Origin: Mytilus galloprovincialis
Lineage: Eukaryota; Mollusca; Bivalvia; Mytilida; Mytilidae
DNA length: 64,000 nt
Assembly: GCF_965363235.1 (NCBI RefSeq)
Contig: NC_134850.1
Span: forward strand, 35,561,102 to 35,625,101
Direction of reading: 5' to 3'
The translations under genes were made by a program, and so were the position numbers. Numbering within the stretch: position 1 is the stretch's first letter; each line of letters begins with the position of its first letter. Below are positions 5,618 through 64,000 of the stretch, piece after piece. Below the pieces are notes generated by a model. It was not told where the DNA came from. It ran no database searches and worked only from the letters and a program-made list of their open reading frames with translations.

Positions 5618-6222
5618 TGTTATGATATTGTAATTATTATGTTTATTTATGTTGGCCTAATTTGTGTTGTATGGCCTGATAGTTGTTTACCAAATAATCT
5701 TATAATTGTGCAGTTTAGGAATCACTGGAACAATCACAGAATGATTGGAACTTTCTAGAATGATCCTTATAAAAGATGCGTAATTTAAACTTCTACGTTA
5801 TTCCAGAAACTTCCGTTGTAACTTTCCAGGATTTTCCACAATGTTCCATTATAGAGTGTTCTAGAATTTTCCATTGACAACACTATATATACAGACACTA
5901 AAGTTAAACTCTCATAATTAAACTTGGACATAGACATTGATAGACATTAGTATTCACAGCATTTGGATTGACACTTTTATTCTACAAACAATATCATACT
6001 GGATTGTGACATTAGTAGTGAACGTAATATTCAAATTGGATTCCGAAAGATTTCCGGATACAGATAAAGATAACAGATTGGACTCATATTTTGACAGTTA
6101 AGTTAACAGTTATATTTGTGTAATACCTTTTGTAAACTTTTGTATATTAAATATTGTTAAATTTTACTATTGATTTGTGTCTTTTGTTGGCTACAATTTA
6201 AAGGCGATTTCTGGCCGTAACA
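5618..6222 (+). repeat. 5' long terminal repeat
   Basis: The 605-bp repeat begins TGTTATGATA and ends GGCCGTAACA, giving the 5-bp terminal inverted repeat TGTTA/TAACA. By reading, it matches 11096-11700 at every base except one (t at 6111, a at 11589). A TATA-like stretch (ctatatatac near 5881-5892) could serve as the core promoter of the element. Confidence 0.95.
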
Positions 6223-6227
6223 GAAAT

Positions 6228-6246
6228 TGGGGGCTCGTCCTGGGAT
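6228..6246 (+). promoter_or_regulatory. primer-binding site, tRNA-Pro-like
   Basis: Five bases after the 5' LTR comes TGGGGGCTCGTCC (6228-6240), complementary to the 3' end of tRNA-Pro including CCA. This is the same primer sequence known from murine-leukaemia-type elements. After 13 perfect bases one extra T interrupts before GGGAT, so pairing would be 13 bases, or 18 with a bulge. Confidence 0.8.
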
Positions 6247-6313
6247 CTTAAAAATATTTTATTCATAATTTGTTTAGTATTTGTATTATAACTAGCCAAC
6301 AAAATTCTACAAA

Positions 6314-8983: not shown

Positions 8984-11011
8984 TTTGACAGAGACTGGGA
9001 TGATGGAGTTCACTTTCTACTTTTTGCGGTTCGAGAGGCTGTTCAAGAATCCCTTGGATTTAGTCCCTTTGAGTTGGTATTTGGTCATACTGTAAGGGGA
9101 CCGTTAAAATTGATTAAGGAAAAGTGGCTTACTGAACATACTGACTTGAATCTTTTAGACTATGTATCTAGATTTAAAGAAAAATTGTACACTGCTTGTC
9201 AAATTGCTCAGAAAAACTTAAAAAATGTACAGAACAAGATGAAAATATGGTATGATAAAGATGCCAGGGACAGAGTTTTTGAGCCTGGTGATAGGGTACT
9301 TGTATTTTTGCCAGTCCCTGGACATCCTTTACAGGCTAAATATTGTGGTCCTTATACAATAGAGAGTAAAATCAATGATTTGAATTATATTGTAAAAACT
9401 CCAGGTCGGCGTAAACAAAACAGAGTGTGTCATATTAATATGTTAAAACCATATTTTGAGCGTACTAATGAATGTGAGAGTAAACCAGTTGCCACTTTAG
9501 GCATGGTTAAATTTGAGAACAATCATGACAAACCAAATGTAATTGAACCACCTTTTAGTTCTAAAACTATGGAAGAGACGGTTAGATTGAAAAATTCAGA
9601 AATTTTGTCAAATTTAGACTCAAAACTTGCACATCTATCTTTTGATCGTAGAGAAGAAATAAAAACTTTGGTATTTTCTTTTAAAAATCTTTTTCCAGAT
9701 GTGCCAAACAAAACCACTGCTGTTTGTCATGATGTTGATGTAGGAGATGCTTCTCCAATTAAGCAACATCCTTATCGGCTTAATCCACTCAAACTTGAAG
9801 CTATGAGAACAGAAATTAAATATATGCTTGACAATGATATTATTGAGCCGAGTAACAGTGAATGGAGCTCTCCTTGTCTCCTTGTGCCAAAACCAGATAA
9901 AACTTTTCGTTTCGTGACTGATTTCAGAAAAGTAAATTCAGTCTCAAAATCTGATTCCTATCCGATTCCAAGGATAGACGATTGTATTGACAATATTGGT
10001 CAAGCAAAATTTGTGAGCAAATTTGATTTATTGAAAGGTTATTGGCAAGTTCCATTGACACAGAGAGCTCGTGAAATATCAGCTTTTGTTACACCAGATG
10101 GCTTATTTCAATATACTGTAATGCCATTTGGCATGAAAAGTGCTCCAGCTACATTTCAAAGAATGATCAATAATGTTATAAAAGATTTAGACTGTTGTTA
10201 TGCTTATATTGATGATCTTATTGTATGTAGTGATAGCTGGGAACAGCATTTAACACATTTATATGATACTTTTGATAGATTGTCAAAATCAAATTTGACT
10301 GTTAATCTTGGTAAAAGTGAATTTTGTCAGGCCACTGTTGATTATTTAGGGCATACAGTTGGCCAAGGTCAAGTAAAACCTATTATGGCTAAAGTGGAAG
10401 CTATTTCCAAATTCCCACCTCCTACAAATAGAAAACAACTTATGAGATATTTAGGCATGATAGGATTTTACAGGAAATTCTGTTCAAATTTTGCTACTGT
10501 TGTTCAACCATTGACTCATCTTTTACGAAAAGATTCTAAATTTATCTGGAGTGAAAATTGTCAAAAAGCTTTTGAAAATAGCAAATCACTTTTAATTAAT
10601 AGTCCAGTTCTGATTACTCCAGACTTTGAAAAACAATTTAAACTTGCCGTTGATGCAAGCGATGTAGGAATAGGAGCTGTTTTATATCAAGAGACAGATG
10701 ATAATGTTGAAAAACCTATATCATATTTTTCTAAGAAATTGGATAAACATCAGAAAAATTATTCAACTATTGAAAAAGAGTGTTTTGCAATGTTGTCAGC
10801 ACTTCAACATTTTGATGTATATTTGAATCCCACTGTATATCCTATTCTTGTTTATACTGATCATAATCCTCTCACCTTCATGCATAAAATGAGAAACAAG
10901 AATCAGAGGTTGACTAGGTGGAGTTTATTGTTACAGGAATATGATGTAATTGTAAAACATATTAAGGGTAAAGATAATGTAATAGCTGATGCTTTATCTA
11001 GAGCTTATTAA
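8984..11011 (+). CDS. integrase C-terminus, reverse transcriptase and RNase H
   Basis: Same reading frame as the upstream part, open right after the TAA at 8981-8983. The first internal ATG, at 9074, is not a natural start because it falls inside integrase. Residues below count from that ATG. A GPY motif of the integrase C-terminal module is at 92-94. Reverse transcriptase runs from about 228 to 400, with D318 in the FDLLKGYWQ motif and the YIDD box at 378-381. RNase H follows, with an Asp at 527 in VDASDVGIGAV, the YTDHNPL motif, and the usual gypsy-type ending near IADALSRAY. The product ends at TAA 11009-11011. RNase H ends the frame, so no integrase lies downstream of RT; this confirms the unusual order. 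Confidence 0.93.
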   Translation, partial: FDRDWDDGVHFLLFAVREAVQESLGFSPFELVFGHTVRGPLKLIKEKWLTEHTDLNLLDYVSRFKEKLYTACQIAQKNLKNVQNKMKIWYDKDARDRVFEPGDRVLVFLPVPGHPLQAKYCGPYTIESKINDLNYIVKTPGRRKQNRVCHINMLKPYFERTNECESKPVATLGMVKFENNHDKPNVIEPPFSSKTMEETVRLKNSEILSNLDSKLAHLSFDRREEIKTLVFSFKNLFPDVPNKTTAVCHDVDVGDASPIKQHPYRLNPLKLEAMRTEIKYMLDNDIIEPSNSEWSSPCLLVPKPDKTFRFVTDFRKVNSVSKSDSYPIPRIDDCIDNIGQAKFVSKFDLLKGYWQVPLTQRAREISAFVTPDGLFQYTVMPFGMKSAPATFQRMINNVIKDLDCCYAYIDDLIVCSDSWEQHLTHLYDTFDRLSKSNLTVNLGKSEFCQATVDYLGHTVGQGQVKPIMAKVEAISKFPPPTNRKQLMRYLGMIGFYRKFCSNFATVVQPLTHLLRKDSKFIWSENCQKAFENSKSLLINSPVLITPDFEKQFKLAVDASDVGIGAVLYQETDDNVEKPISYFSKKLDKHQKNYSTIEKECFAMLSALQHFDVYLNPTVYPILVYTDHNPLTFMHKMRNKNQRLTRWSLLLQEYDVIVKHIKGKDNVIADALSRAY

Positions 11012-11084
11012 ATCACTTTGTATATATTATGTATTTTTGTTCATATTATTCATGATAAGTTTTTGTTACACTAAAACTTCTTTT

Positions 11085-11095
11085 AAGGGGGGAGG
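11085..11095 (+). promoter_or_regulatory. polypurine tract
   Basis: AAGGGGGGAGG ends exactly at the base before the 3' LTR. This is the standard position and composition for the plus-strand primer of an LTR retrotransposon. Confidence 0.9.
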
Positions 11096-11700
11096 TGTTA
11101 TGATATTGTAATTATTATGTTTATTTATGTTGGCCTAATTTGTGTTGTATGGCCTGATAGTTGTTTACCAAATAATCTTATAATTGTGCAGTTTAGGAAT
11201 CACTGGAACAATCACAGAATGATTGGAACTTTCTAGAATGATCCTTATAAAAGATGCGTAATTTAAACTTCTACGTTATTCCAGAAACTTCCGTTGTAAC
11301 TTTCCAGGATTTTCCACAATGTTCCATTATAGAGTGTTCTAGAATTTTCCATTGACAACACTATATATACAGACACTAAAGTTAAACTCTCATAATTAAA
11401 CTTGGACATAGACATTGATAGACATTAGTATTCACAGCATTTGGATTGACACTTTTATTCTACAAACAATATCATACTGGATTGTGACATTAGTAGTGAA
11501 CGTAATATTCAAATTGGATTCCGAAAGATTTCCGGATACAGATAAAGATAACAGATTGGACTCATATTTTGACAGTTAAGTTAACAGTAATATTTGTGTA
11601 ATACCTTTTGTAAACTTTTGTATATTAAATATTGTTAAATTTTACTATTGATTTGTGTCTTTTGTTGGCTACAATTTAAAGGCGATTTCTGGCCGTAACA
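11096..11700 (+). repeat. 3' long terminal repeat
   Basis: The 605-bp repeat matches 5618-6222 except at one position. It is followed by TAAT, the right copy of the 4-bp target duplication. Confidence 0.95.
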
Positions 11701-48800: not shown

Positions 48801-49469
48801 ACTGGCTATACTTAATTGAGTGTTTGTCTTTCAGGTAATGCCAGGAAAACTTTATCTATTCTTTTTTCAATGTGCATGATAAATCGCTGAATGTAGAACT
48901 GCAAAACAGCAAATCAGCTGTGTTGTCTATCGTTGAGAATATAAATAATGACTTCGCAATCCCATCAATATCATATTTTTATTCGTCTATATCAACCTTA
49001 TAAATGCCGTTTACCATTGAATAAACTCATTTATACTTCGTCTGACATGTATAGCAACAATTATTTCAAAATTTTCTTCTGTCACATCGTGATACAATTT
49101 CCTGCTCTGTGTCCGGCACCATATAATATGCATGCATGTGTGTATTTAACATACTATATAGTAAAATATTATTTCCATCGATCATCGCGGTGGGAAGGCG
49201 TCAAGAACCACCCGATGCAACTGGAGTTTTCCTATTCAATAGATGTTAGGTTATGTGGGGTTATGCTGTTCAGCCGATAACATAGTATACTATGTTACTA
49301 TATAGTATTGGGTTATCCTGTTGAATAGAATGATTTTATGCAGCAATTATAACCAATCAATTGCAGTTTCCCAGCATGCTTTTCAAAGAGTTCTAACATT
49401 AGCCATTTTCAAATAACATAAAAAGCACGTTCAAGTTTTCCTTTTATTTCTCGTACATCTCAACTAGAC

Positions 49470-49475
49470 ATGTCG
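49470..49475 (+). CDS. candidate first coding exon of homeobox/HMG-like gene (start codon only)
   Basis: ATG TCG is followed at once by a consensus donor (gtaagc) in phase 0, which is the only phase the next exon (52177-52314) accepts without a stop. The joined start would read Met-Ser-Lys-Thr-Asn. Upstream near 49350 is a CCAAT-type word (aaccaatca). With only two codons the support is weak; an alternative promoter lies at 49860-49915. Confidence 0.3.
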
Positions 49476-49859
49476 GTAAGCTATTTTAATGTTTTATCAT
49501 CTGTCCGACTAGAGATATTTGAAATATTACAGGGCTGAACCTGTGCCCATCTTTATTGCAGACTGAAATGTGATGTTGCAGTGCTGCGTTATCCATACCC
49601 TATAATGGTACTATGAACTAAGCAGATTTTCTTGTTATAATAATGATATATGAACGTTGCTTCCTTTGTGCGTACTGGATGCACTATATATGCAGACTAT
49701 GCAACTACTTTCTAGAAACTTCGTAGCAATTGAAATTGAAAAAAATAGACGCTTGCAACCAATGATGCTCTCATACAAAATCTATAATATTATATATATA
49801 TGAGATTTATTACATGATTTTAAAATGTTTTCCAGTAAATGTAAAATGCTAAGAATTTG

Positions 49860-49915
49860 TCCGCGGCGGGATTTTTACTTTTGTCACGTGACCGTTAAGT
49901 CAAAATGGCGGACAT
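49860..49915 (+). promoter_or_regulatory. promoter-like cluster: CACGTG palindrome and ATGGCGG
   Basis: A rare GC-rich patch (ccgcggcggg) is followed by GTCACGTGAC at 49883-49892, a perfect E-box palindrome of the USF/MYC/TFE type. Then comes AAAATGGCGGAC from 49902, close to the YY1 core found at start sites of housekeeping genes. The cluster is upstream of the homeobox/HMG-like exons and in the right direction. The ATG in it soon meets a stop (MADIQ then TAA), so it is unlikely to be the protein start. Confidence 0.45.
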
Positions 49916-50206
49916 CCAGTAATAGGAAAGTGGCCGCTACAAAAAATATTAGTTGCGGTTTATCGGAGGACCTCCAATGGATTTTAAACGGGAAGCTTAT
50001 TTTCTTATATACCTTTGAAAAATAACATATTAATAGAATTGACTACCGTTTACTCACAGACAGTAGTTTCTGTCAATGCAAAAAAGGGGGATACTATCCA
50101 CATTCGTATGTTAAATAACTCGCACTTGTTTTTGTTAATGGGGGATGGGGTGAAAAACTTTTCATTTCTTTAGTGTTAATTGTTTTCACTTATTATTCTT
50201 TATCTT

Positions 50207-51027
50207 GGATCTCCTGTAGTTGGTAATCGCAATACTGGTATACCACTATTGTCCACAATACTGGTATACAAATTTTGTACCAGTATTGTTACTTTTTTTT
50301 GGTAGATTAGTACCATAGTCACTTCAGAACCATATATATGGGCAATACAATTTGTAACAGATATATCTTCTTCTTCTTTAATTGCACTTGTAAATACTGA
50401 GCACGCAGGTTGACGTTTGCACAGCAGTATCTGCGTTATGGATTTCCACTGCAGATCAATAGTGTAGATGTAGATGTGGTACAAATACTTATACATTTTT
50501 GTACTTGGCAAGCACTCCGACAGTTAGAGAGCTGTTCAGGTGATATCTGAAAAAGTTTATAATCTAGTAAGAGAAAGTACACAAAGACTGAATACCTAAA
50601 TATCAATATAGGAAGTGTGGAGGGAGGATTTGCAGAAATACCATCTTAATAAAATATAGACACTAAAATATACTACTGAGACCTGAAAAGAGATAGCTAA
50701 AAGAAAACATAGAAGAAAGTAAAGAGTTTGTTAAAATGCTGAGACAGTATGGTTTCCTTAAGCAATGTTAAGGAAAAAACATCAGAAAATTCAAAACTTC
50801 CTTTATGACAATCACAATGTTCCATCAGTTAAACATACAATTATTCCTTATTAAATTGTCATGTCATATTTCATTATGCATATATATTTGACACCTTTGA
50901 TAAAAGATTAATTACCTATATATGTATTGTTTATTTAAGAAAACACAATACTGGTACAAATTTTTTATACCAGTATTGTGCACAATACTAGTATACCAGT
51001 ATTGCGATCACCAACTACAGGAGATCC
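50207..51027. mobile_element. 821-bp non-autonomous DNA element with long inverted ends
   Basis: The two ends are inverted copies of about 82 bp (50207-50288 and 50946-51027), starting GGATCTCCTGTAGTTGGT and differing at a handful of bases. The target duplication TTTATCTT (8 bp) lies at 50199-50206 and 51028-51035. Inside each arm 'caatactggtata' is itself palindromic and repeated. There is no coding capacity; frames over it are by-products. An 8-bp duplication fits hAT, P or Merlin-type transposases, but the family is not fixed by these ends. Confidence 0.9.
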
Positions 51028-51504
51028 TTTATCTTTAAAACACTGGCTATTATGTAATCACATGAATTACTATTATCTTCAAATGATATTTTCTGTCCTT
51101 TATGTCCACCCACTTCATTATTTTTTTTCTTTTTTCCTATCCACATCCTCATAGGGATATAAGCCTTATTATAACAAACTGACCACTTAATAGGAACTAT
51201 GGCTGTGTTGACATCTAAAATAATACTCAGAATTACCTGAGCAGAGGAAAACATCTTGACTCTTGAGGCCTTTATTTCTAATTGCTTTAATTATTTTAAT
51301 TTACTCTTAAACTTGACACAACGACCAATGATATAATTTGTTGAATTTATAAAAATAAAGATTAGAACTACTACTGCACTAAGTGTGAAAATTAAGATTA
51401 AAACAAATTGCATCCATAGTATTCTAATAATGGTTAGAAAAACAGCAACTTCTTCTTCTTCTTCTTTTTTTATACACATGAAAAATATTAAAAGAATGGA
51501 CACG

Positions 51505-52030
51505 AGGAATGTTTAAAAGAGTCAACAAACCAACTATAAAGCACAAAACAGCCAAGGGCCATCAATGAATATGCTTAAGCTTGTAAAAGAATTTTTTTAT
51601 AGATGACCTTATGCTGATATTAGAAATATTATTTATATTATTTGATAACCATATTTCCTTTATAATTATGTAATATTCTTTTCATTGATAAAACCAGTAA
51701 CAAATAAAGTTGAGAAAGGAAATGAGGAATGTGTCAAAGCGACAACAACCCGACCATAGAGCAGACAACAGCCAAAGGCCACCAATGGGTCTTCAATGTA
51801 TCAAGAAACTCCCGCACCCAGAGGTGTCTTTCAGCTGGCCCCTTAATAAATATGTATACTAGTTCAGTGATAATGGACATCATACTAAACTCTGAAAGAT
51901 ACACAAGAAACTAAAATTAAAAATCATACAAGACTAACAAAGGCCAGAGGCTCCGGACTTGGGACAGGAGCAAAATTGCAGCAGGGTTAAACATGTTTAT
52001 GAGATCTGAACCGTCTCCTTATACCTCTAG
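51505..52030. repeat. dispersed mussel-type repeats, clustered
   Basis: A unit 'gaggaatgtgtcaaagcgac', 'aacaacccgaccatagagca', 'gccaaaggccaccaatgggt', 'cttcaatgta...ctcccgcaccc' at 51722-51860 has a poorer copy at 51508-51580 and further copies at 63112-63245 and 63427-63510. A piece at 51940-52030 ('ggctccggacttgggacagg') is related to 40785-40860. The 61-codon frame here is repeat-derived. Confidence 0.75.
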
Positions 52031-52176
52031 CCAATGTAGATAAGTGAACAAATGCTTGTTTAAAAGCATTACTTTAAGGTTCCTTTGACTAAAGGTTTCA
52101 CCTCGATATGAAATGTATTTAGTATAAACATGATAAAGTTAATACTAAAACCGCTCACAGTGTAAATATATTTCAG

Positions 52177-52314
52177 AAAACAAACTTATCAGAGGAGACC
52201 AAGGATATTTTGAAGGAGCTGTTTGCCCAAGGCATGGACTGCAAAGGTATAAAAAGCAGTGTGCTGCACAACAAGGCTGTTGAAAGAACAGGACTGCCGT
52301 TACAGGTTATCAAG
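52177..52314 (+). CDS. homeodomain-like exon of homeobox/HMG-like gene
   Basis: This 138-bp exon lies between an acceptor (atatttcag) and a donor (gtattt) and is phase 0 at both ends; the other two phases contain stops. It encodes 46 residues: a first helix (SEETKDILKELFAQGM), a linker, and a second helix running into the next exon. Joined to 53516-53630 it gives VIKDWIGNYKK, which keeps the Trp and Asn of a homeodomain recognition helix (W-x-x-N pattern). This suggests a nuclear DNA-binding protein. The sequence is atypical, with Tyr-Lys in place of the usual Arg pair, and I do not recognise a named family. Confidence 0.7.
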
Positions 52315-53515
52315 GTATTTTAATTTATATGTCAACTTGGCAATGGTGACTTTAAATTTTCATGTAATACATTGCATTATTAAATAGGCTTTCAAACTGT
52401 AACAAAGGATTTGGATTTGGATTAATACCAAAACACTGTACATGGTGTATCCAGTCATATATATTAATTCAAAGTTTATACATGTTAATAGTTTTTCTGA
52501 TTTTGATATTCTATTCAACTGTTTTGATGGAATTCACATGTATGTTGTATCATTGTGTCATTTTACAATACAGTGTACATGCATTTGCTCACATGCAATA
52601 CCAATCTTGAACAAACAATTAATAAATTCATACCTATTAAATATTATCCCCGGCTTAATATACTTCTATGATTTTGATTGGTTAACGCACGTCATTACAA
52701 AACCCATAGCCCCTGGGTGTTGCTAACCCATATTCCTGGACATTGCTTACTATTATCCCAGGGAACTTCACGCTTGTGAAATATAAAATTCTGTAGATTA
52801 TTCATGATGACTGTAATTTAAATATTTTAATAATTCATTAATGATTTGTCCTATTATGCCGATCATTTACACTCATTTCATTAAATGCATCACTTGACTG
52901 CCTCATTGAAGGAATGGGACTACTGACCTAGCTATGCAAATGACCCACTTTGACGTCAGTCACGTCACACCATCTATGACATAACTCTCACAACATTGAG
53001 CACCAAATTTGAATCCATCCAGTTTCTCTGTCTCAGGATTAAAAAACGTCTTATATTTGACTACCTGTAGGGTTTGACCAAAGGTAAGTACCCTACACCT
53101 TGTAAAAAAAATGTCAAATTTCCAAATTTCAATTAAACTACATGTATTTTAGATCATGAAAAAAACATTGATTTTATGCAACACTTTGTACCCAAATTTC
53201 CCTAAAACTCTTCCAATTCAAACTAAGACCGGGGATTAATTCGTTATCTACGTTCATATTGCATAGATAATTTATAGCGTCATTCTAATAAAATCAGGAA
53301 AAAAAAACTATAGTATAAAAATATCCATATGAATAAAATTGATTATGGACCTTATATACCTTGAATGATTCTACATATAACATGTAACCACTCAGATAAA
53401 ATAGCTTAATAATTGTGAGATACTAAAAGTCTAATTTGATTTTTTTACAATTTCACCTTTGTCATTTTGGAGTCATATGTGCCTGATTGAATTTATTTTA
53501 TACTAATAATTTAAG

Positions 53516-53630
53516 GACTGGATTGGCAATTATAAAAAAGTCGTGGAGGGAAGGAAATATGAAGCACAGCCACGGACATTATACCTCAAAGGAATGACTG
53601 GGTATAATTGTTTTGTTAGAGAGAAAAAAG
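53516..53630 (+). CDS. second exon of homeobox/HMG-like gene
   Basis: This 115-bp exon has an acceptor (aatttaag) and a donor (gtaaac). It enters in phase 0 and leaves in phase 1. It begins with the DWIGNYKK recognition-helix segment, then a basic linker, then GYNCFVREKK, which resembles the first helix of an HMG box. The next exon supplies the rest of that box. The 216-bp stretch duplicated by the LINE begins only 46 bp after this exon. Confidence 0.7.
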
Positions 53631-53676
53631 GTAAACTGCATACATGTATGTTAATATATATAGCCTATCGTTATTT

Positions 53677-53892
53677 TAACTGGGGCTAAAATGGCAAGAG
53701 GTTAATCTAAAGGAAGTACACCACTAATTAATGGCCCCATTGCTTTCTATGTTAAATTCCTCAATTTCGAGTGGTCACAGCTCTTTTAACTTAAGTTCAA
53801 ATAAAGTGACAATCATTACATGTCAAAGCAACACCTTCTGGTGTCCTGTACTGAAAAAATCAACATAAAACTACCCATAACACTTTGGTTTT
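53677..53892. repeat. 216-bp direct repeat, left copy flanking the LINE
   Basis: Identical by reading to 56512-56727 over 216 bases (the last four T are shared with the poly(T) start). The LINE lies exactly between the two copies, so they are the duplicated target site. Confidence 0.95.
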
Positions 53893-56511
53893 TTTTTTTT
53901 TTTTTTTTTTTTTTCTTGAATATAAATTTATTGCACTAAAGCTGTTAACAATGACCTTACCGCTACAGCTTTAACTGTAAGGTACCCTGAAATAGTTAGT
54001 ATCTATAAGAACAGGGTTTCATATAGATAAGTATTTTTTCTTAAATTTTATATTAGTATATTACAATTAAATACAATGTTCAATAATAATGTAATACAAT
54101 TCAGTACCCTGATCTGAAATAAATGATATATTTTCCTTCTATACATATAATCAAATTAAATAACGCCCATTTAATACTCTTATCCGAAATTGAATGTTTG
54201 GTGTCAATTATCTCGTTTAAAAATTACATGATTTAAGAGTGTGTGACATCGATTTTCTTGATCGGAAGGTTTACCTTGTTTAAAGGTGAGAGAGAGCATG
54301 CTTTTTAATGGATGTATGTTGAATTAGGCTACTTTACTTCTTTTTTATTTGGATTTTAAACATTTTAGGTGAGTCTTTTCTTTATTTTTATTTATTTAGT
54401 TAAAGTGTTCTAGAAATATCTTCTTTAAGAGTGTTTTATTTTGGAGAAATTAAAGTTTGAAGCACTTGGACTGTAGTATATTCTTGTAGATTGTAGGATC
54501 TTAAGTATTCGTCCAGTTCAACTTTAAACAGATTGAATACATTAGTAGATTTATTTCTCTGATCGGATACATAGTATGATTTGTAGATAGCAAATCCTAT
54601 AAGTGTCAGAATTATATTGAATCCGATATACTCATTATCTGTTATTTTGTAGCCTATTACAATGTCTTTTAAGTTAATGTTTTTGTTAAAATTCATTTGA
54701 GATAAGATTTTATTAATGATTTCCCAAAATTCTTTTAGAAATTTACATTCGATAAAAAAGTGTTGATACGTGTCTTTGAGTTGACAAAGTTGACAAAACG
54801 GACTAGTTACGATTTTCCATTTATAGAGATTATCTCTATTCGGTAAAATGCAAGTTATTAGTTTCCACCTAAACATTTTAAGTTTATTAAGTTTTAAGTG
54901 TTGGTGTATAAACTTAAACATATATTTGGTAAAGTCATAATTTATTTCTAATTCATTTTTCCATTTATTTATGCCAATGTTTGGAGAAATTTTTTTTTGA
55001 ACGAGCAATTGATACACGTTTTTGTTGCTTAAATTTTCAATTTTAATGTTTTCTTTGTTTATATTGATAAATAATCTGTTAAAATTTACTTTTGATTTGA
55101 TGGATTCTTCTGTAGCTAAAATTTTTAGCCATGAGGTTGGAATTGAGTTTTTTACTTTTGAAATTTCTGCTATCCAATTTTTAGTGTTTCGCAGTTTTCT
55201 AAATATTTTATCTTGGGCAATTTTTCCATTATCGTCAATAATATCGTTAATGTAAATAAAATCACTGTGTATCCAGTTATGCATAATAAGCGGCTTGTTT
55301 TGAAATTTTATAAATTTATTACCCCAGATAACTTGCTTTCTTATTTCGACAAAGTTTTTCAATTCTGTGATGTTCGTTTCATGAAATAAAATCCAACTTT
55401 TTATTATTTCTAAGTAAAATTCTGGAATGTCCTTAGTTATGTAATCTAGTTTTTTTAAAGTTTGGTTATTTAAATTCATTCTAAAAATGAGGAAATTAGA
55501 ACCTAATTTACTTAAAAATAATTTTGGTATCAATGTCCAATTTTCTTGTTTTGCCTGTAGCAATCTAGAGACCCATCTTATTTGAAGAGAGGAGAAATAG
55601 CTTTTTATGTCGGTCATTTTAAGCCCTCCCTGGTTATAATCTGCTACCAAAGTATGTCTTTTAACTTTGTCTTTCTTATTGTTCCATATAAAACCAAAAA
55701 TTTCTCTTTCTATATCAACTATTTTTGAGTTACTTAAAGCTGTAACATTTGTTAAAAAAGTAAATTGTGGTATAATGAGAGTTTTAACTATTAGAATTTT
55801 GCCTAAAATGGTTAAGTTTCTTTTTTTCCACGATGTTATCAGGTTTCGACTCTTTTCAAATCTTGTATCCCAATTTAATTTTTCACAATCTTTTTTATTA
55901 ATGCCGAAATATATACCTAGCACTTTTACAGGTTTGTCCGTGAATTTAATTTCATCTACTTTATCTCTACAATGCTTTAGTTTACCAATCCAAATTCCTT
56001 CCGTTTTATTTTTGTTTAGTTGTAATCCAGAAAAAGTTCCAAAAATTTCGATTATATTTAATGCTGTTCGGATTTCTTCTTTAGATTTTAGGAATAGAGT
56101 TGTATCATCAGCCACTTGCGTGATTTTTAAGCAATGTGTTTTACTATCAATTTTTAATTCTATGCCTGTTATATTTTTGTTTTGCCTTAGTTGGTTAGCC
56201 ATTATTTCTACTGACATTACGAAAAGTATAGAAGAGCACGGGCATCCCTGTCGGATACCTCTTAGGGGTCTAAAGGGGGCAGATATCCAACCGTTATTAA
56301 ATATAGAACTATCTATATTTGTATACAAGGTTTTTATCCAGTTTATGAAGGGTTTATTAAAACCAAAATATTCTAAAGTATGATACATAAAATTCCATTC
56401 TAATGTGTCGAAAGCTTTCGAAAAATCTATGAATAAAATTGCTCCTTCTATATTAAACTTATCTGCGTAATCTATAACATCTTGTATTTGGCGCAAATTA
56501 AAACCTATAAA
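53893..56511 (-). mobile_element. 5'-truncated LINE with a 216-bp target-site duplication
   Basis: The element is in minus orientation. Its 3' end is a poly(A) tract, read as a T run at 53889-53914, with AATAAA (forward TTTATT 53927-53932) just before it. The 3' UTR is about 500 bp, and the reverse-transcriptase ORF ends at 54436. Its 5' end at 56511 is abrupt and lies within the RT domain, so the endonuclease and N-terminal RT are missing. The flanking 216-bp repeats are identical, so the insertion is recent. It sits in an intron of the homeobox/HMG-like gene, antisense to it. Confidence 0.93.
54436..56511 (-). CDS. LINE reverse transcriptase, N-terminally truncated
   Basis: Open from the truncated 5' end (56511) to TAA near 54436, about 690 codons with no internal stop. 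RT motifs in order: LFIDFSKAFDTLEW, RGIRQGCPCSSILF, and the active-site box QVADDTTLF, where the aromatic residue usual before ADD is Val. Then GLQLNKNKTE, LGIYFG and WKKRNLTILGK (thumb). Near the C-terminus is a zinc knuckle-like block, FCQLCQLKDTYQHFFIEC. The order and wording fit the L1/Tx1-type lineage of non-LTR retrotransposons. It lacks the apurinic endonuclease and the upstream RT blocks because of truncation, and has no start codon of its own, so this copy is dead although undecayed. Confidence 0.9.
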   Translation of the reverse strand, partial: FIGFNLRQIQDVIDYADKFNIEGAILFIDFSKAFDTLEWNFMYHTLEYFGFNKPFINWIKTLYTNIDSSIFNNGWISAPFRPLRGIRQGCPCSSILFVMSVEIMANQLRQNKNITGIELKIDSKTHCLKITQVADDTTLFLKSKEEIRTALNIIEIFGTFSGLQLNKNKTEGIWIGKLKHCRDKVDEIKFTDKPVKVLGIYFGINKKDCEKLNWDTRFEKSRNLITSWKKRNLTILGKILIVKTLIIPQFTFLTNVTALSNSKIVDIEREIFGFIWNNKKDKVKRHTLVADYNQGGLKMTDIKSYFSSLQIRWVSRLLQAKQENWTLIPKLFLSKLGSNFLIFRMNLNNQTLKKLDYITKDIPEFYLEIIKSWILFHETNITELKNFVEIRKQVIWGNKFIKFQNKPLIMHNWIHSDFIYINDIIDDNGKIAQDKIFRKLRNTKNWIAEISKVKNSIPTSWLKILATEESIKSKVNFNRLFININKENIKIENLSNKNVYQLLVQKKISPNIGINKWKNELEINYDFTKYMFKFIHQHLKLNKLKMFRWKLITCILPNRDNLYKWKIVTSPFCQLCQLKDTYQHFFIECKFLKEFWEIINKILSQMNFNKNINLKDIVIGYKITDNEYIGFNIILTLIGFAIYKSYYVSDQRNKSTNVFNLFKVELDEYLRSYNLQEYTTVQVLQTLISPK

Positions 56512-56727
56512 TAACTGGGGCTAAAATGGCAAGAGGTTAATCTAAAGGAAGTACACCACTAATTAATGGCCCCATTGCTTTCTATGTTAAATTCCTCAAT
56601 TTCGAGTGGTCACAGCTCTTTTAACTTAAGTTCAAATAAAGTGACAATCATTACATGTCAAAGCAACACCTTCTGGTGTCCTGTACTGAAAAAATCAACA
56701 TAAAACTACCCATAACACTTTGGTTTT
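56512..56727. repeat. 216-bp direct repeat, right copy flanking the LINE
   Basis: Right copy of the duplicated target, identical to 53677-53892. After it the host intron continues with 'gtttggtttgtacattt'. Confidence 0.95.
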
Positions 56728-57952
56728 GTTTGGTTTGTACATTTCATGAGCAGGATATTAAATAATATAGTCAAACACATACTTATAACCCAATCAAAGT
56801 CTCATACTTTACATGAATTTCAAGAAAAATAACCAAAGACGGACCAAAAAAGACTCATTTTTGCAAGAGTTATCTCCCCTTCCAATGTCAATTTCCATAG
56901 GAAATTTAAAATGCTGATTTTGAGTTTTTCTCAAGTTACATTTTATGGGACTTTTTTCTTGTGTATAAAAAGGGCATAATGCTATAGATTAGAACTAAAA
57001 CATTTTCTGTTGCAATTAGTTTGAGGTTAAATCTTAGTATGACTGGACTATGTGTACCTAAATATAGATTCATGACGTCTTGCAAGTTCCTGGTTTTATG
57101 ATTTTTTTTTCGTTATGGTGACAAAAAATATTATATCAACCTCATCAAAAGTTAATAATTGTATATTATTAGTACTGTTGTTCAAATCTTCAACCCTATA
57201 AATATATTGTATACATTAATTAATAAGTCTGTGTTGTAAAAAAAGATTTAAATTGTAAATTAGTCTTTTAATTCATTACTTTTTTTCCAATTAGTTTTAC
57301 ATTTTTGTGATAATATTTTATAGAAATGTTATATATGATTAATCATTGAAAAAGACAATCTATAGATAAATATATACATTGTACCACCTATACCTGCATA
57401 TATATAAATAAAAAAGATGTTATGATTTGCCATGGAACAAATCTCCATGTTATCTCAAATCCTTTTGATATAAGCCATTATTAGTTATGGCTTTCTAAAT
57501 GGGTTATTTTATATTGCCCTTGGTCGTGGATGGGATGAAGTCATGAACAGATATTTATATTAACATTGTAAGTGTGATTTTCTATGCAGTTTATTATATT
57601 TCTACAGCCTGCTATTTTTGCTACATCTGATGGATACAGTATACTTGAAGTCAATTTACATGTGGACATATTTAAATATATAAATTCATGGTGATTTTAT
57701 ACTAAAAATTATTTCTGTACACCTATTATACTTTGTGTATAGTGATAAGTCAGCATGTACAAAATGAATTTACATCTGACAAAGTATGCATATGCAGGAG
57801 TTACTTTCACTCATGACTGTGCATTTAAAAGAAATCTAACGTTATTTCAACTCTAAAATAAGTTGAATTAAAAATTTGTTTAAAGAGAAAAGCATCCCAA
57901 TTCCTTAAAAAAAGCAAATAACATATTATTGATCATGCAGTTACTTCTTACA
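56728..57952. other. intron of the homeobox/HMG-like gene, no feature seen
   Basis: AT-rich intronic DNA with no coding frame or clear repeat boundaries. Confidence 0.5.
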
Positions 57953-57960
57953 CTTGACTG

Positions 57961-58864
57961 CAGGGATGGGGTCAATTACTTTAAAATATAATCGATTAAA
58001 TTACAATTACTTTGCTTATAAAATGTAATCCATTACATTACAATTACACCTTATTTCAAATGTAATTGATTACATGAGATTATTTTTCTTTAAAGTAATG
58101 ATGATTACTTATGATTACATTGTATATGCAATACTAAAGAATTTCTAATAACTTTTTATCCTCAGGAAAAAGCTAATTTTTGTATCTTTTTTTAAAGCCA
58201 TAATTTATTAATCTTATTTAAAAGAATTTAGACCAGTACAGTGTAACATGTGTAATTTTATAACATAGCTATAGACAAGTGTCTTTTCTCTATGTAAGAG
58301 ATATAACTTTGTTTTTTCTACAAGTTTTAACCAACTCGGCAACTGCCTAATTTTTAAAAAACTTGGACAAATAATAAAAAAATCAATCAAGTATTGTTTT
58401 ATTGTCTGTGAGGACATAATTGACACATCCATATATATTTTTACAGGACTGGTGTTATTCACTACCTTCATTTTTTAACAAACAATAGAGCTTGAGTATT
58501 AAAATTTTATTGTCTTAATTGCAATATCAATAAAGTTATAAGTGGTTATAAGATGATATCACATTAAGAAAAGTCCCATCATAGTGAATACTAGTTTTAT
58601 GATTTTTTATTCATGCTTTACACTTTCATATTGTCTATCAAATACTATTTTCCAATATACCAGTATACAAAATTTGTAACCAGCAAGTAATCATTTGAAT
58701 GTAATCTAAAAAGAATAAAAAAATAATCATGATTACACCTTTTTTGGCAATGTAATTGATTACATTGTGATTACTTGTAATCAGAAATGACAGGATTACT
58801 GATTACAGAGGACTTCACTTCAAAATGTTATCGATTACAGCTGGTTAAGATTATCCCATGCCTG
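57961..58864. mobile_element. 904-bp non-autonomous hAT-like element
   Basis: The ends are CAGGGATGGG at 57961-57970 and CCCATGCCTG at 58855-58864 (inverted, one mismatch). They are flanked by a perfect 8-bp duplication, CTTGACTG, at 57953-57960 and 58865-58872. CAG...CTG-type ends and an 8-bp duplication are the hAT pattern. The subterminal 150 bp on each side are full of 'gtaatcgattac', 'attgattaca' and 'attacaatta' words in both orientations, likely transposase-binding repeats. There is no coding capacity; the minus-strand frame 58214-58471 has no motif. Confidence 0.92.
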
Positions 58865-59096
58865 CTTGACTGACTTCACTAATTGCAGTAGCCTAAAGAA
58901 TATTTACTTGAGCTGCTCATAAAAATTTGATGAAATTTGGCATCAATGAATAGTAGCCTCAATTGAAGGTTTAAAAAGTTTTTCTTTTGACCTTTTTTAA
59001 AGAAGAATTAATGGAAAAACTTGTGTTTGCTTATTCTTAAAAGAATCAGTCAGGTTAGACAGTTGATTAACCTAATTTTATATTTGTTTATTTAAG

Positions 59097-59254
59097 ATCA
59101 ATTCAATGACATAGCAGACTGGGCACCTGCCTGGAATTTGTTAGGGCAGGAGGAAAAGGAGGCATATAAACAGAAGGCAAAGGAAAATCCAGTGGTACCA
59201 CCTCAACCACAACAGAAAGATGCCTTTAAAAGGCTTAAGATTATCAGAGAACAT
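59097..59254 (+). CDS. HMG-box-like exon of homeobox/HMG-like gene
   Basis: This 158-bp exon has an acceptor (tttatttaag) and a donor (gtgaga). It enters in phase 1 (the split codon gives Asp) and leaves in phase 0. It encodes WAPAWNLLGQEEKEAYKQKA, the Trp-x-x-Leu-x-x-x-Glu-Lys-x-x-Tyr pattern of the second and third HMG-box helices, completing the box begun in the previous exon. A Pro/Gln-rich spacer and a basic helix follow. Confidence 0.7.
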
Positions 59255-59290
59255 GTGAGACTTATTTTTTTTAATTATTATTTGATTTAA

Positions 59291-60966
59291 GGGGGCTCGC
59301 GGGTCTAAATCGATTTTTAACCGGATTTTTGTAACAAAAATGTCGGTTATTGATTTGGGGATGTACGGCGGTCGGTCGGTCGGGCGGGCGGCCGGGAGGC
59401 CGGGCGGGCGGGCGGGAATCAAATGTTGTCCGTGCATTACCTCATGAACCGTTCAACCAAAGCTTTTAAAATTTTAATATGTTGTTACTGACAACTAAAT
59501 GAAGGTCAAGTTCAATAATGGCAATTTTGACTTTTACCGTTCAGGAGTTATGGTTCTTGAAAGATTGAAAAATGGAGTTTCCAGTCGTGTCCCTGCATTT
59601 ACGCATGAACTGTTCTACCTAAGCTTTCCAAATTTTAATATGTTGTTACTGATGACAAAATGGAGATCAAGTCCCATAATGGCGATTTTGACTTTTACCG
59701 TTCAGGAGTTATGGTTCTTGAAAGATTGAAAAATGGAGTTTCCAGTCGTGTCCGTGCATTTACGCATGAACTGTTCTACCTAAGCTTCCCAAATTTTAAT
59801 ATGTTGTTACTGATGACAAAATGGAGGTCAAGTTTAATAATGACGATTTTGACTTTTACCGTTCAGGAGTTATGGTTCTTGAAAGATTGAAAAATGGTGT
59901 TTCCAGTCGTGTCCGTGCATTTACGCATGAACTGTTTTACCAAAGCTTCCCAAATTTTAATATGTTGTTACTGATGACAAAATAGAGGTCAAGTTCAATA
60001 ATGACGATTTCGACTTTTACCGTTCAGGAGTTATGGTTCTTGAAAGATTGAAAAATGGTGTTTCCAGTCGTGTCCGTGCATTTTCTCATGAACCATTCAA
60101 CCAAAGCTTTTGAAATTTTTATATGTTGTTACTGATGGCAAATTAGAGGTCAAGTTCAATAATGACTATTTTGACTTTTACCGTTCAGGAGTTATGGTTC
60201 TTGAAAGATTGTGAAATGGCGTTTCCATTCACGTTGTTGCATTTACTCATGAACCATTCAATCTAAGCTTTTCAAATTTTAAGATGTTGATACTGATGAC
60301 AAAATGGAGGTCAAATTTGATATTGACGATTTTCACTTTCACCATTCATCAGTAATGGTTCTTGTGATATTGCCAGGACACAAATAAATATTAATAAATC
60401 CGGTTTGCTGTCGTTGTGACAGCCTCTTGTTTTATTTAATATAGGATTTCTCTATATTTTTCTATAAATTAACTTTATCTTATACCTAATGGAAAAATTA
60501 AATAAAAATATGGGGTCACCGTGCATTTACGCTCACAATCTGCCTTCGAAAAAAGATTACATATTTGTTAATGTCCTTTTTTTCTGTTGAACTAATATGA
60601 GAAATATTGGTAATATCGAAATAAAAAAAGAACTAAATTACAGAAATTTGTTAAATTTTACAATTTTTTAGTTTATGTACAGCCTTTTGGAAAACAACAA
60701 TAAAAAATATAGGTCACCGATGAGTTAAAAAAGATATTTCATTTTTAGCCAAAAAAATGTCACTTTTGCACCAAAGGGAGATAATTTGGAGCTTTTTCAA
60801 TGATATCTAAATTTTAAAAGTCACCTGGGGCCAACATGTATTGATTTTTTTTAAAAAATTCTTGTACCATAAAATAAAGTAACAACTACTAAAGGTAATT
60901 AATAAAATTTGTAAAGAAAAATGAATGTTTGAATTTTTTCTGAAAATCTTATACCCGCGAGCCTCC
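59291..60966. mobile_element. TTAA-flanked non-autonomous element with 160-bp tandem core
   Basis: The ends GGGGGCTCGCGGGT (59291-59304) and ACCCGCGAGCCTCC (60953-60966) are inverted with one mismatch. TTAA stands directly outside both (59287-59290 and 60967-60970), as produced by Kolobok- or piggyBac-type transposases. After a (GGCGGGCGGGCC)-type simple repeat, a unit containing 'ttttgacttttaccgttcag', 'gagttatggttcttgaaaga', 'ccagtcgtgtccgtgcattt' and 'ttttaatatgttgttactga' repeats about six times at 160-161 bp spacing (59548, 59709, 59870, 60031, 60191, 60350). The 76-codon frames inside are by-products of the repeat. Confidence 0.88.
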
Positions 60967-61142
60967 TTAAACAATTTTATTCTGATTTGCTTATAAAATA
61001 AACTTTCCTGAAGACCCAACTTGTAATATGATGGCAACATTTTTTCAGTTACCGGCAATATGTGTATGTGTTTTGATGCATGCTAAAGTGAGCATTTTCC
61101 ATAACTTGGCATCCACCATCATCTTCGTCCGTTTAATTTTAA

Positions 61143-61361
61143 TGCCAAATAATGGCATTTTTGCACCAAAGGGAGATAATTTGGAGCTTTTTCAATGATA
61201 CCTACATTTTTAGTGTCACATGGGGCCAACAGTTAAGCCGCCAACTATTGGAATTATTTTTGTACCGTATGATAAAGTAACAACTACTAAAGGTAATTAA
61301 TAGAATTTGTAATGAAAAACAAATGTTATTTTTTTCTGAAAATCTTATACCCGCAATCCTC
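61143..61361. repeat. partial second copy of the TTAA element's right end
   Basis: Matches about 60749-60966: 'gcaccaaagggagataattt', 'ggagctttttcaatgata', 'aagtaacaactactaaagg', 'tctgaaaatcttatacccgc'. The terminal repeat is decayed and TTAA is missing. No tandem core accompanies it. Confidence 0.8.
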
Positions 61362-61594
61362 CTGAAAAGGCATTTTTTAAGCCACAAATAAATGTATATT
61401 GAAAGTCAAAAATAGTTATTGATAAAAGATTTAAGCAAAAAATTACAGGTGCGCAAACTAGGCTCTTGATAAATAAATATCAATAAATATCAATAAATAG
61501 TGAGTGTGCACAATTTTTTTTTTATCTAGGTTTGTTTGATATTATTTTAATCCTCAGTCAGACCATAAAAAAATATTTTTCTTTTTCCCTTCAG

Positions 61595-61745
61595 ATTGTT
61601 GAACTTGAAAAGCATGGTATAGATGTAGCTCTGGTAGGCATTGACACCAACACTGGATCCCAGATCCTTTTAGGAGATGGAAAATCTGCTGCCTTCCTTA
61701 AATCAGAGGACATCCTGCAGAATTTGTTTGCTTTTCATTCACTAG
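61595..61745 (+). CDS. fourth recognised exon of homeobox/HMG-like gene
   Basis: This 151-bp exon has a strong acceptor (tttttcccttcag) and a donor (gtcaga), entering in phase 0 and leaving in phase 1. It encodes about 50 residues: VELEKHGIDVALVGIDTNTG, then GDGKSAAFLKSEDILQNLFAFHSL. No known domain is recognised. The alternation of hydrophobic and polar residues suggests a folded alpha/beta piece rather than a linker. The exon joins in frame on both sides. Confidence 0.75.
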
Positions 61746-61879
61746 GTCAGAATTTTAACATTTGTATGCCCTATTTATGGGCATTTTGTTTTCTGCTCTG
61801 TGCATTTGTTTGTTTGTTATCTTTTGTTTGTTTTTCTGTCTGTTTCACTTCAGGTTTAAGTTTTTGGTTGAGGTTTTTA

Positions 61880-62058
61880 GCTTTTGGATTAAATTGAATT
61901 CCAATCAACTTGAAACTTTTTATACATGTTTCCTGTGATGATCTTTCTAATTATAATGCCAAATTAGAGTTTTTGTTCCATTTTCACAGTCCACTGAACA
62001 TGGATAATGATAGTGCAAATGGGCATCCATGTACTGGGGACACATTCTTGTTTAAATT
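61880..62058 (-). repeat. dispersed repeat, copy 3 of 3 (inverted)
   Basis: In reverse complement it reads 'aacaagaatgtgtccccagtacatgg', split as 'acaagaatgtgtcc' and 'cagtacatggatgccc', then 'gcactatcat', 'ttcagtggac' and 'aattagaaagatcat'. It matches the first two thirds of 14787-15076 and 46658-46960, without the simple repeat and A-rich end. Confidence 0.8.
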
Positions 62059-62917
62059 ACATACAAGTTTAATTCAGTTTACCAAAAATTGTCACTACCT
62101 GTACCTATCGCTTTTTGTCTGAACTAGACAGAGCCAAAAAACCAGACATGGTGGGGGAGCATTAACAATGTATAAGTTTGTGATTACATCTAGTTTATAG
62201 TGAACCACTTTTGGTATGCAGTTGTATAAGTGTAGGCATTTCTTATTTCCATGAAAAATATTTTCCTCTGTCCCTATGTCATGGTTTATTGACTTTGAAA
62301 CTTTTGCTTAGTTTACTTGTTTTATTTTGTGATTAGGTTCAAGGGGATTCATTAGTGGCATTAGTATTATTTTATCCAAATTTCAATAGAAGAAGTAACG
62401 AAATTATTTTCAGTTTGTAAGTTTTTATTTGTATAACGTCATGTTTAGCAATGAAATCTATGCACCAAAATCATTTATGAAGTTTTGCAGAATTTTATTT
62501 TATTTCAAGTTTATACATTTTTCCAACTGTTACAACTTATTATTTGTTTGTAATGCATTAGATTTGGAATAACAGTACGTACTATAGTTGAAGAGTTGCC
62601 ACCTCAATTTTGATTTGATGGTTACAAATATCCGTTTTACTGTGTCCACTACCTGTCACCAGTTAAACTGCATTTACGAATCACTTCAACTAGAGTACTT
62701 TCATTCCTATGTGTGAGGTTGTGCATCCAACTATGGAATGGTCCTTTATAGACCTAGTTACCATGGAAACTGTTCAAATATAATAAAAAATATTGGCAAG
62801 GTAGCCTGGCATCATGAAGTGACATCTGCTATTGCTTGCCAATTCTAGTTATTTTTCTTTTTGTATGGTTAACAATCTAGTTTTAATATTGTGACTTGAC
62901 ATAACTTTTTTCTGTAG
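62059..62917. other. intron, no feature seen
   Basis: Intronic DNA between the fourth and fifth exons of the homeobox/HMG-like gene. No open frame or repeat could be supported. Confidence 0.5.
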
Positions 62918-62989
62918 GAACCAAAGAAGTACCAAAAGACTTAAAAAGTCTTCAACAGGAGGCTCAAACCCACATGAACAAGTTGTATT
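62918..62989 (+). CDS. fifth recognised exon of homeobox/HMG-like gene
   Basis: This 72-bp exon lies between an acceptor (ttttttctgtag) and a donor (gtaagt). It enters in phase 1 (the split codon gives Gly) and leaves in phase 1. It encodes about 23 residues, mostly one amphipathic helix (KEVPKDLKSLQQEAQTHMNK). The gene continues beyond the window; about 210 residues are visible in all. Confidence 0.7.
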
Positions 62990-63107
62990 GTAAGTGTAAT
63001 GTCTTTTACTCTACTTCATATGAAATTTCAGCTGCAATGTGGAAAACCTTAATGCTGAGTTTATAAATCTCGTAATAATAATGTTAACTTGAAGAAAAAA
63101 TAAAATT

Positions 63108-63245
63108 AAGAATGGAAATGGGGAATGTGTCAAAGAGACAACAACCCGACCAAATAAAAAACAACAGCAGAAGGTCACCAACAGGTCTTCAATGTAGCGA
63201 GAAATTCCCGCACCCGGAGGCGTCCTTCAGCTGGCCCCTTGAAGA
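63108..63245 (+). repeat. dispersed mussel-type repeat copy
   Basis: 'ggaatgtgtcaaagagacaa', 'caacccgacca', 'gtcttcaatgtagcgaga', 'attcccgcacccgg' and 'cttcagctggcccc' match 51722-51860. A shorter copy starts at 63427. Confidence 0.8.
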
Positions 63246-64000
63246 AAAAAGTCCATTTATAAGTTTAATACGGATTAACAGGTACAACGTTTTAACAAAA
63301 CTTCCTTCTGGATATTAGCTTTTGATCATAAACAAGTTTTTATTCAAGTTTGGTACAAATCCAGAATAGCTTAAAAGTTATTAAAATTTTTAAAACTTTG
63401 ACCACAAAATAGAAATAAAATAGAGAATGGAAATAGGGAATGTGCCAAAGAGACAAAAACCCGACCATATAAACAGACAACAGCAAAAGGTCACCAATAG
63501 ATCTTCAAATTCTGGAATGTATTGTTTCCTGGCCCAAAAAACTAAGTCAATTTATAATTATGTACAGAAATTTTTTTATTTTCTTTTTAACAAATTGACT
63601 TCTGAATACTATCTCATTGTCATAAACAAGCTTCTGTCCAAGTTTGGTAGAATTTGAGGAAAGTCATTAACATTTTAACCACAGAGTGAATTTAATGCTT
63701 CCCAGCAGAAAAACTAAGTCTATTTACAAGAATATGTCATTAAATTTTAAAAACTTTAAACACAGATTGAATTTAATGTTTCCAAGCAGAAAAACAGGGT
63801 CTATTTCGTGTAAAATACGGAAAGTTGAATTTTATTTTTACAAAATTTACTTCTGGATACTATTTAATGATCATAAATAAGCTTCTGTCCACGTTACAAA
63901 TTCAGGATAGCTTAAGAAAGCTATTAACATTTCAAAAAACTTTAACCACAGAGTGACTATTTGTGGACGCGGACGAAACAGAATGTAGGATTGCTTTGTC
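63246..64000. repeat. degenerate direct repeats at right edge
   Basis: A module 'acttctgga.acta', 'gatcataaacaagcttctgtcca', 'agtttggta', 'aagctattaacatt' and 'aaccacagagtga' occurs three times (about 63300-63410, 63597-63690, 63847-63955), spaced 250-300 bp. A partial copy of the 63108 repeat lies between the first two. It may be the start of a larger repeat that continues outside the window. Confidence 0.65.

Follow-up and report, generated by a model that had tools for sequence, protein, structure and literature searches.

Structure of the insertion

The window, a 64,000-nucleotide stretch of Mytilus galloprovincialis DNA (C13:35561102–35625101), contains a LINE lying between two copies of a 216-bp sequence (Table 1). 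The two copies match at every one of the 216 positions, the outer base differs on either side, and both copies abut the LINE flush; a repeat scan of the window returns the same pair as 225 nt at 99% with a spacing of 2835 bp. The earlier note had described identical 216-bp repeats around a LINE, and this description is confirmed exactly. Origin by chance of an exact repeat of this length, abutting a single element at either end, lies far beyond what could be expected. The duplication proper measures 211–216 bp: the tail may account for four of the T, and one base at the 5’ junction also occurs in the longer relatives L053, L061, L062 and L064. This junction holds no extra bases. Within the 216 bp lies a fragment of a dispersed repeat, which extends further at three other loci (L006, L007 and L008), where ~480 bp are alike in all at 96–97%.

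Table 1. Features at the insertion locus, numbered from the first base of the window
Feature	Position	Strand	Basis
Left arm (window part) of a ~31–33-kb near-perfect inverted duplication; other arm without the LINE	49209..64000	+	
Probable target-site duplication, copy at the poly(T)/poly(A) 3’ end of the LINE	53677..53892		exact match; single at paralogous LINE-free sites
Dispersed-repeat fragment within the 216-bp target	53710..53867	+	34 matches to part of the query, stopping at its base 191
26-base T run: A tail of the LINE plus 4 T possibly of the target	53889..53914	+	
5’-truncated LINE copy, 2619 bp including the A tail	53893..56511	-	bounded by the 216-bp copies; family matches
ORF2, C-terminal ~690 residues (reverse transcriptase, zf-RVT), open to the stop codon	54436..56511	-	
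Probable target-site duplication, copy at the truncated 5’ end of the LINE	56512..56727		exact match

The LINE copy contains a reverse transcriptase ORF, with Pfam matches to RVT_1 (PF00078, 8.9e-23) and zf-RVT (PF13966, 6.7e-10). Its reading frame (54436–56520) enters the 5’-side duplication by three codons, and beyond ORF2 the element continues with a 521-bp 3’ region that ends in the T run on the + strand. Identification of the element as a LINE insertion thus holds, given the ORF with reverse transcriptase and zf-RVT, the A tail and the 5’ truncation. A search of the LINE sequence against plasmids gave no match.

A protein search with ORF2 found at least 347 matching proteins among 7994 candidates scored. 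The twelve best relatives by E-value, among the 120 listed, are 47–60% identical and carry RVT_1 and zf-RVT; some longer homologues among the same 120, for example P0015, also carry PF03372. This APE-type endonuclease part is absent from the truncated window copy, and in the longer copy in L062 PF03372 is matched only weakly (0.0082), at 16.4 bits where the Pfam cut-off is 24.5. The far-upstream ORF of L054 has a zinc knuckle match (0.00031) below the Pfam cut-off, and the second ORF of the same locus had no match in Pfam. Among solved structures the top chain is 8c8j (5.6e-30), labelled only as an RNA-directed DNA polymerase; human L1 ORF2p (8sxt) scores 1e-28 and R2 proteins 1e-10 to 1e-8, and the reverse transcriptase is therefore nearer to L1 ORF2p than to R2. 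By these scores the family appears L1-like (L1/Tx1 group), a label that comes from match scores rather than from a tree and that does not establish the clade.

LINE-free sites

The 1.385-Gb assembly (331 contigs) was searched with a 224-base duplication query, and 40 of 1324 candidates were scored. Outside the window, the full 216 bp occurs in three of these 40, namely in the other arm of the inverted duplication (L002) and at two sites on C1 (L004 and L005); a further one holds bases 1–191, and in 34 only the portion belonging to the dispersed repeat is present, stopping at base 191. Each of the three sites carries exactly one 216-bp copy within the 3.2 kb read around it. The other arm is LINE-free and matches the joined flanks of the window insertion at 965 of 965 positions. 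The C1 sites align with the joined-flank model over bases 1–893 of 965 at 97.8%, with 4 mismatches and 16 gap positions. L004 (C1:50328231) and L005 (C1:49562862) are identical over 3216 bp, and they consequently count as one piece of evidence. They are inverted copies of the target region, ~765 kb apart. On C10, L006 represents the same site without the LINE, broken after base 191 by another insert of 933 bp, so that it contains no intact copy.

The earlier note had called the repeat a target-site duplication of the LINE, and had proposed looking for an empty allele in other individuals, where one copy would support this and two would speak against it. The sites found are paralogues within one assembly, and all three (L002, L004 and L005) hold a single copy. 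Since LINE-free paralogous sites carry the sequence once, the 216-bp repeat is best read as a target-site duplication, and the insertion itself most likely produced it. Taken alone, the near-identical LINE-free arm could be the result of element loss by recombination between the two 216-bp copies; the diverged C1 and C10 sites make the single copy the likelier older state.

Duplication lengths and putative nick sites in the LINE family

Other insertions of the family were collected with the 521 bp at the 3’ end of the LINE as query, which gave 44 matches, with 40 of 93 candidates scored. At least 16 matches span the whole 521 bp at 90–100% identity, nine of them at 98–100%, the window copy included. 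The family copies have A tails, varied 5’ ends that reflect frequent 5’ truncation, and no LTRs. The idea that the 216-bp repeats are LTR-like termini was rejected, because the 3’ flanks of the family copies differ from the repeat and the full 216 bp sits at LINE-free sites. Junctions were examined in 30 copies, that is, 29 loci (L025–L053) and the window. A duplication was obtained in 14 (L025, L026, L027, L029, L031, L034, L036, L037, L043, L046, L047, L049, L051 and the window), with lengths of 10, 12, 13, 13, 14, 14, 15, 15, 15, 16, 16, 16, 46 and 216 bp. Each value is that of the longest exact match, some bases of which may also be part of the tail or of the LINE. The median of the 14 is 15 bp. 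The weaker cases are L047, with a 10-bp match, L046, which ends at an internal 3’ position, and L037 and L049, with 22 and 11 bases, respectively, between the duplication and the aligned LINE start. In three of the 30 copies with the 5’ end present (L028, L032 and L040), a duplication was looked for and none was found. The remaining 13 were not measurable; in L030, L033, L035, L038, L039, L041, L042, L044, L050, L052 and L053 the 5’ end is missing or uncertain, and L045 and L048 are fragments. L044 and L050 had been considered as copies without a duplication and were dropped, as LINE sequence continues upstream of them. At C11:77811500–77813730 (L063), about ten tandem units with a spacing of 39 bp occur in the upstream part of family copy L033.

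The usual duplication length of the family is L1-like, and the window copy is an outlier, because 12 of the 14 measured duplications fall within 10–16 bp. Collecting these lengths, as the earlier note had advised, yielded the short class together with two exceptions. The 46-bp exact duplication belongs to L027 (C3, with L055 and L058), and ~2–7 bp of it possibly represent microhomology with the LINE. L026 was considered as a second long case on account of an 81-bp match and other matches; this locus lies within a ~225-bp tandem array, and the duplication there is 14–15 bp.

The nick site ends in TTTT in 4 of the 14 measured copies, with TTTT/GTTT in the window, TTTT/AC in L029 and L049, and TTTT/AA in L051. 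The other ten sites do not end in TTTT, although L036 and L047 come near; L036 was rejected as a TTTT site because its exact match starts with ACAAAA. The window site is thus of a type found elsewhere in the family, and this speaks mildly for a nick by the endonuclease rather than a random break. With 10 of 14 sites not ending in TTTT, however, the support that it lends to an endonuclease cut is modest. For the same reason, the cutting preference of the family is either loose or not captured in this set.

Proposed mechanism and alternatives

The 216-bp duplication very probably arose when a LINE of a young, L1-like family inserted by target-primed reverse transcription and the second strand was cut at a distant position. 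In the order of events that we reconstruct, the endonuclease would have nicked the + strand at TTTT/GTTT, between 56727 and 56728; the A tail of the LINE RNA would have annealed at this nick to start cDNA synthesis of the minus-strand insert, and reverse transcription would have stopped early, leaving the 5’ truncation. The other strand would then have been cut 211–216 bp away, as opposed to the usual 10–16 bp, and filling in of the long single strands would have duplicated the stretch between the cuts. The A tail, the TTTT/GTTT site and the 1-bp microhomology fit target-primed reverse transcription. The sequence at the locus carries no sign of the cause of the second cut; a nick or gap that was already there may have served, or host factors that normally place the cut close by may have failed. 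Of the two routes suggested in the earlier note, widely spaced nicks stand as the simplest, and a staggered double-strand break appears less likely.

The latter route would be endonuclease-independent, with a double-strand break leaving overhangs of ~216 bases and reverse transcription of the LINE priming from the broken end. It would be expected to give the same duplication, and the ten family nick sites that do not end in TTTT are compatible with it, but the 3’ junction at TTTT/GTTT directly adjoining the A tail would then have to reflect a break end that was A-rich by chance, which is possible, and the insertion shows neither a target deletion nor extra bases at the 5’ junction; we regard this route as improbable. 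Even less probable is an error of assembly, in which two haplotypes were misassembled and gave rise to the second copy, or to the entire inverted arm. The region is a hard one, with arms that differ by only ~0.1–0.5% beside a 1.7-kb tandem array, yet an assembler error is not expected to end a duplicate exactly at both ends of the LINE. If the arm were the other haplotype, it would become the empty allele and would support the target-site duplication reading. The case of a 216-bp sequence that was tandemly duplicated beforehand, with the LINE landing between the copies, would also place a LINE between repeats. Against it, one exact copy is present at each of three sites, of which the two on C1 are identical, and the LINE would have had to land precisely on the boundary and leave no duplication of its own. 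Twelve family copies made duplications of 10–16 bp, although three showed none. A pre-existing tandem is considered highly improbable.

A broader proposition is that the second-strand cut in this host or family has a real long tail, as the values of 46 and 216 bp among 14 might suggest, rather than being fixed at 10–16 bp. This seems improbable. Were it true, natural long duplications would form a readable record of germline repair; one may speculate that such a tail comes from second nicks sometimes made in the neighbouring linker, at a distance of roughly one nucleosome, or from weakness, in the germ line, of the repair factors that keep the second cut close.

Comparison with known LINE insertions

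LINEs are already known to leave long duplications in a minority of insertions (PMC5223499, PMC2666801), and the novelty implied by the earlier note is overstated. For human L1 in HeLa cells, duplications of >100 bp never exceed 10% of events, but they account for 4 of 7 insertions in XPA-, 21 of 23 in XPC- and 22 of 28 in XPD-deficient cells; after complementation of XPD the figure is 3 of 9 (PMC5223499). The authors of that study propose that, without nucleotide excision repair, a distal unrelated nick completes the insertion, and they suggest recombination between long duplications as a route of element loss (PMC5223499). The de novo human L1 inserts resemble the window copy in being mostly A-tailed and located at T-rich sites and in having duplications that reach hundreds of bp, for example 242 and 277 bp; they differ in coming from an engineered L1 in cultured, mostly repair-defective cells, whereas the window copy is a natural chromosomal one with no known repair defect (PMC5223499).

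The zebrafish ZfL2-2 element in wild-type chicken DT40 cells offers a parallel, in that 1 of 25 inserts has a 1228-bp duplication (PMC2666801). As at the window locus, a single long duplication contrasts with otherwise short changes at the target, and no repair mutation is involved; unlike it, the case concerns another LINE in cell culture and a longer duplication (PMC2666801). Duplications given for DT40 in another report are 15 bp for L1 and 5 bp for ZfL2-1 (PMC4245944). For genomic human L1, one study describes duplications peaking at 14–16 bp within a collected range of only 5–30 bp, and a preference for TT/AAAA sites; the same study notes that radical alterations, including extremely long duplications, are frequent in 5’-truncated L1 in HeLa cells (PMC2912911). 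The present family resembles genomic human L1 in its short duplications (PMC2912911). Since only 5–30 bp were collected, a case of the 216-bp type could not have been recorded by that design (PMC2912911).

The locus therefore adds a natural case to an outcome that is known and rare, and it does not point to a new mechanism. Cell culture is the source of the long LINE duplications found in the literature, and one study ties them to missing nucleotide excision repair; our literature search found no catalogue of such duplications in natural genomes, which may exist in print. With a natural copy and its LINE-free site in one assembly, the locus shows that such duplications arise on chromosomes and are able to persist, and it offers a clear value for the distance that can separate the two cuts. 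Long direct repeats can remain around a LINE and may later serve as a substrate for its loss.

The inverted duplication, age of the insertion and other features of the window

The insertion lies in one arm of an inverted duplication, followed here through the window and 100 kb beyond. In window numbering, the arms occupy 49209–82462 and 83322–114065, with long matches at 99.5–99.9% and a spacer of ~0.86 kb, and the right arm reaches ~35675166 on C13. Tandem units of ~1.7 kb start beside it, at 114066. The structure may be a real palindrome or a haplotype fold-back. A LINE-free comparison of the arms shows 15 substitutions and 5 gap positions in ~11,960 aligned bp (2 substitutions in a block of 1676; 13 substitutions and the 5 gap positions in one of 10,284), and the arms also differ by one length difference of ~178 bp near 50884. 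Since the LINE is present on one arm only, its insertion postdates the last sharing of sequence between the arms at this place; the alternative is that the other arm has lost it. The recent insertion proposed in the earlier note is supported, but the perfect identity of 216 bases, from which it had been argued, bounds the age only weakly.

An inverted repeat at 50207–51027 has 83-bp arms that are 93% complementary and 655 bp apart. At 59427–60364 there is a tandem array of 161-bp units in 5.8 copies, and this array is also present in the other arm of the inverted duplication. Elsewhere in the window, at 5618–11700, lies an LTR retrotransposon whose 605-bp LTRs are 99.8% identical and which may have a 4-bp duplication, TAAT. 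Its first ORF has matches to SCAN and integrase, upstream of those to reverse transcriptase and RNase H in the second; this placement of the integrase before the reverse transcriptase presumably recalls Gmr1-like elements.
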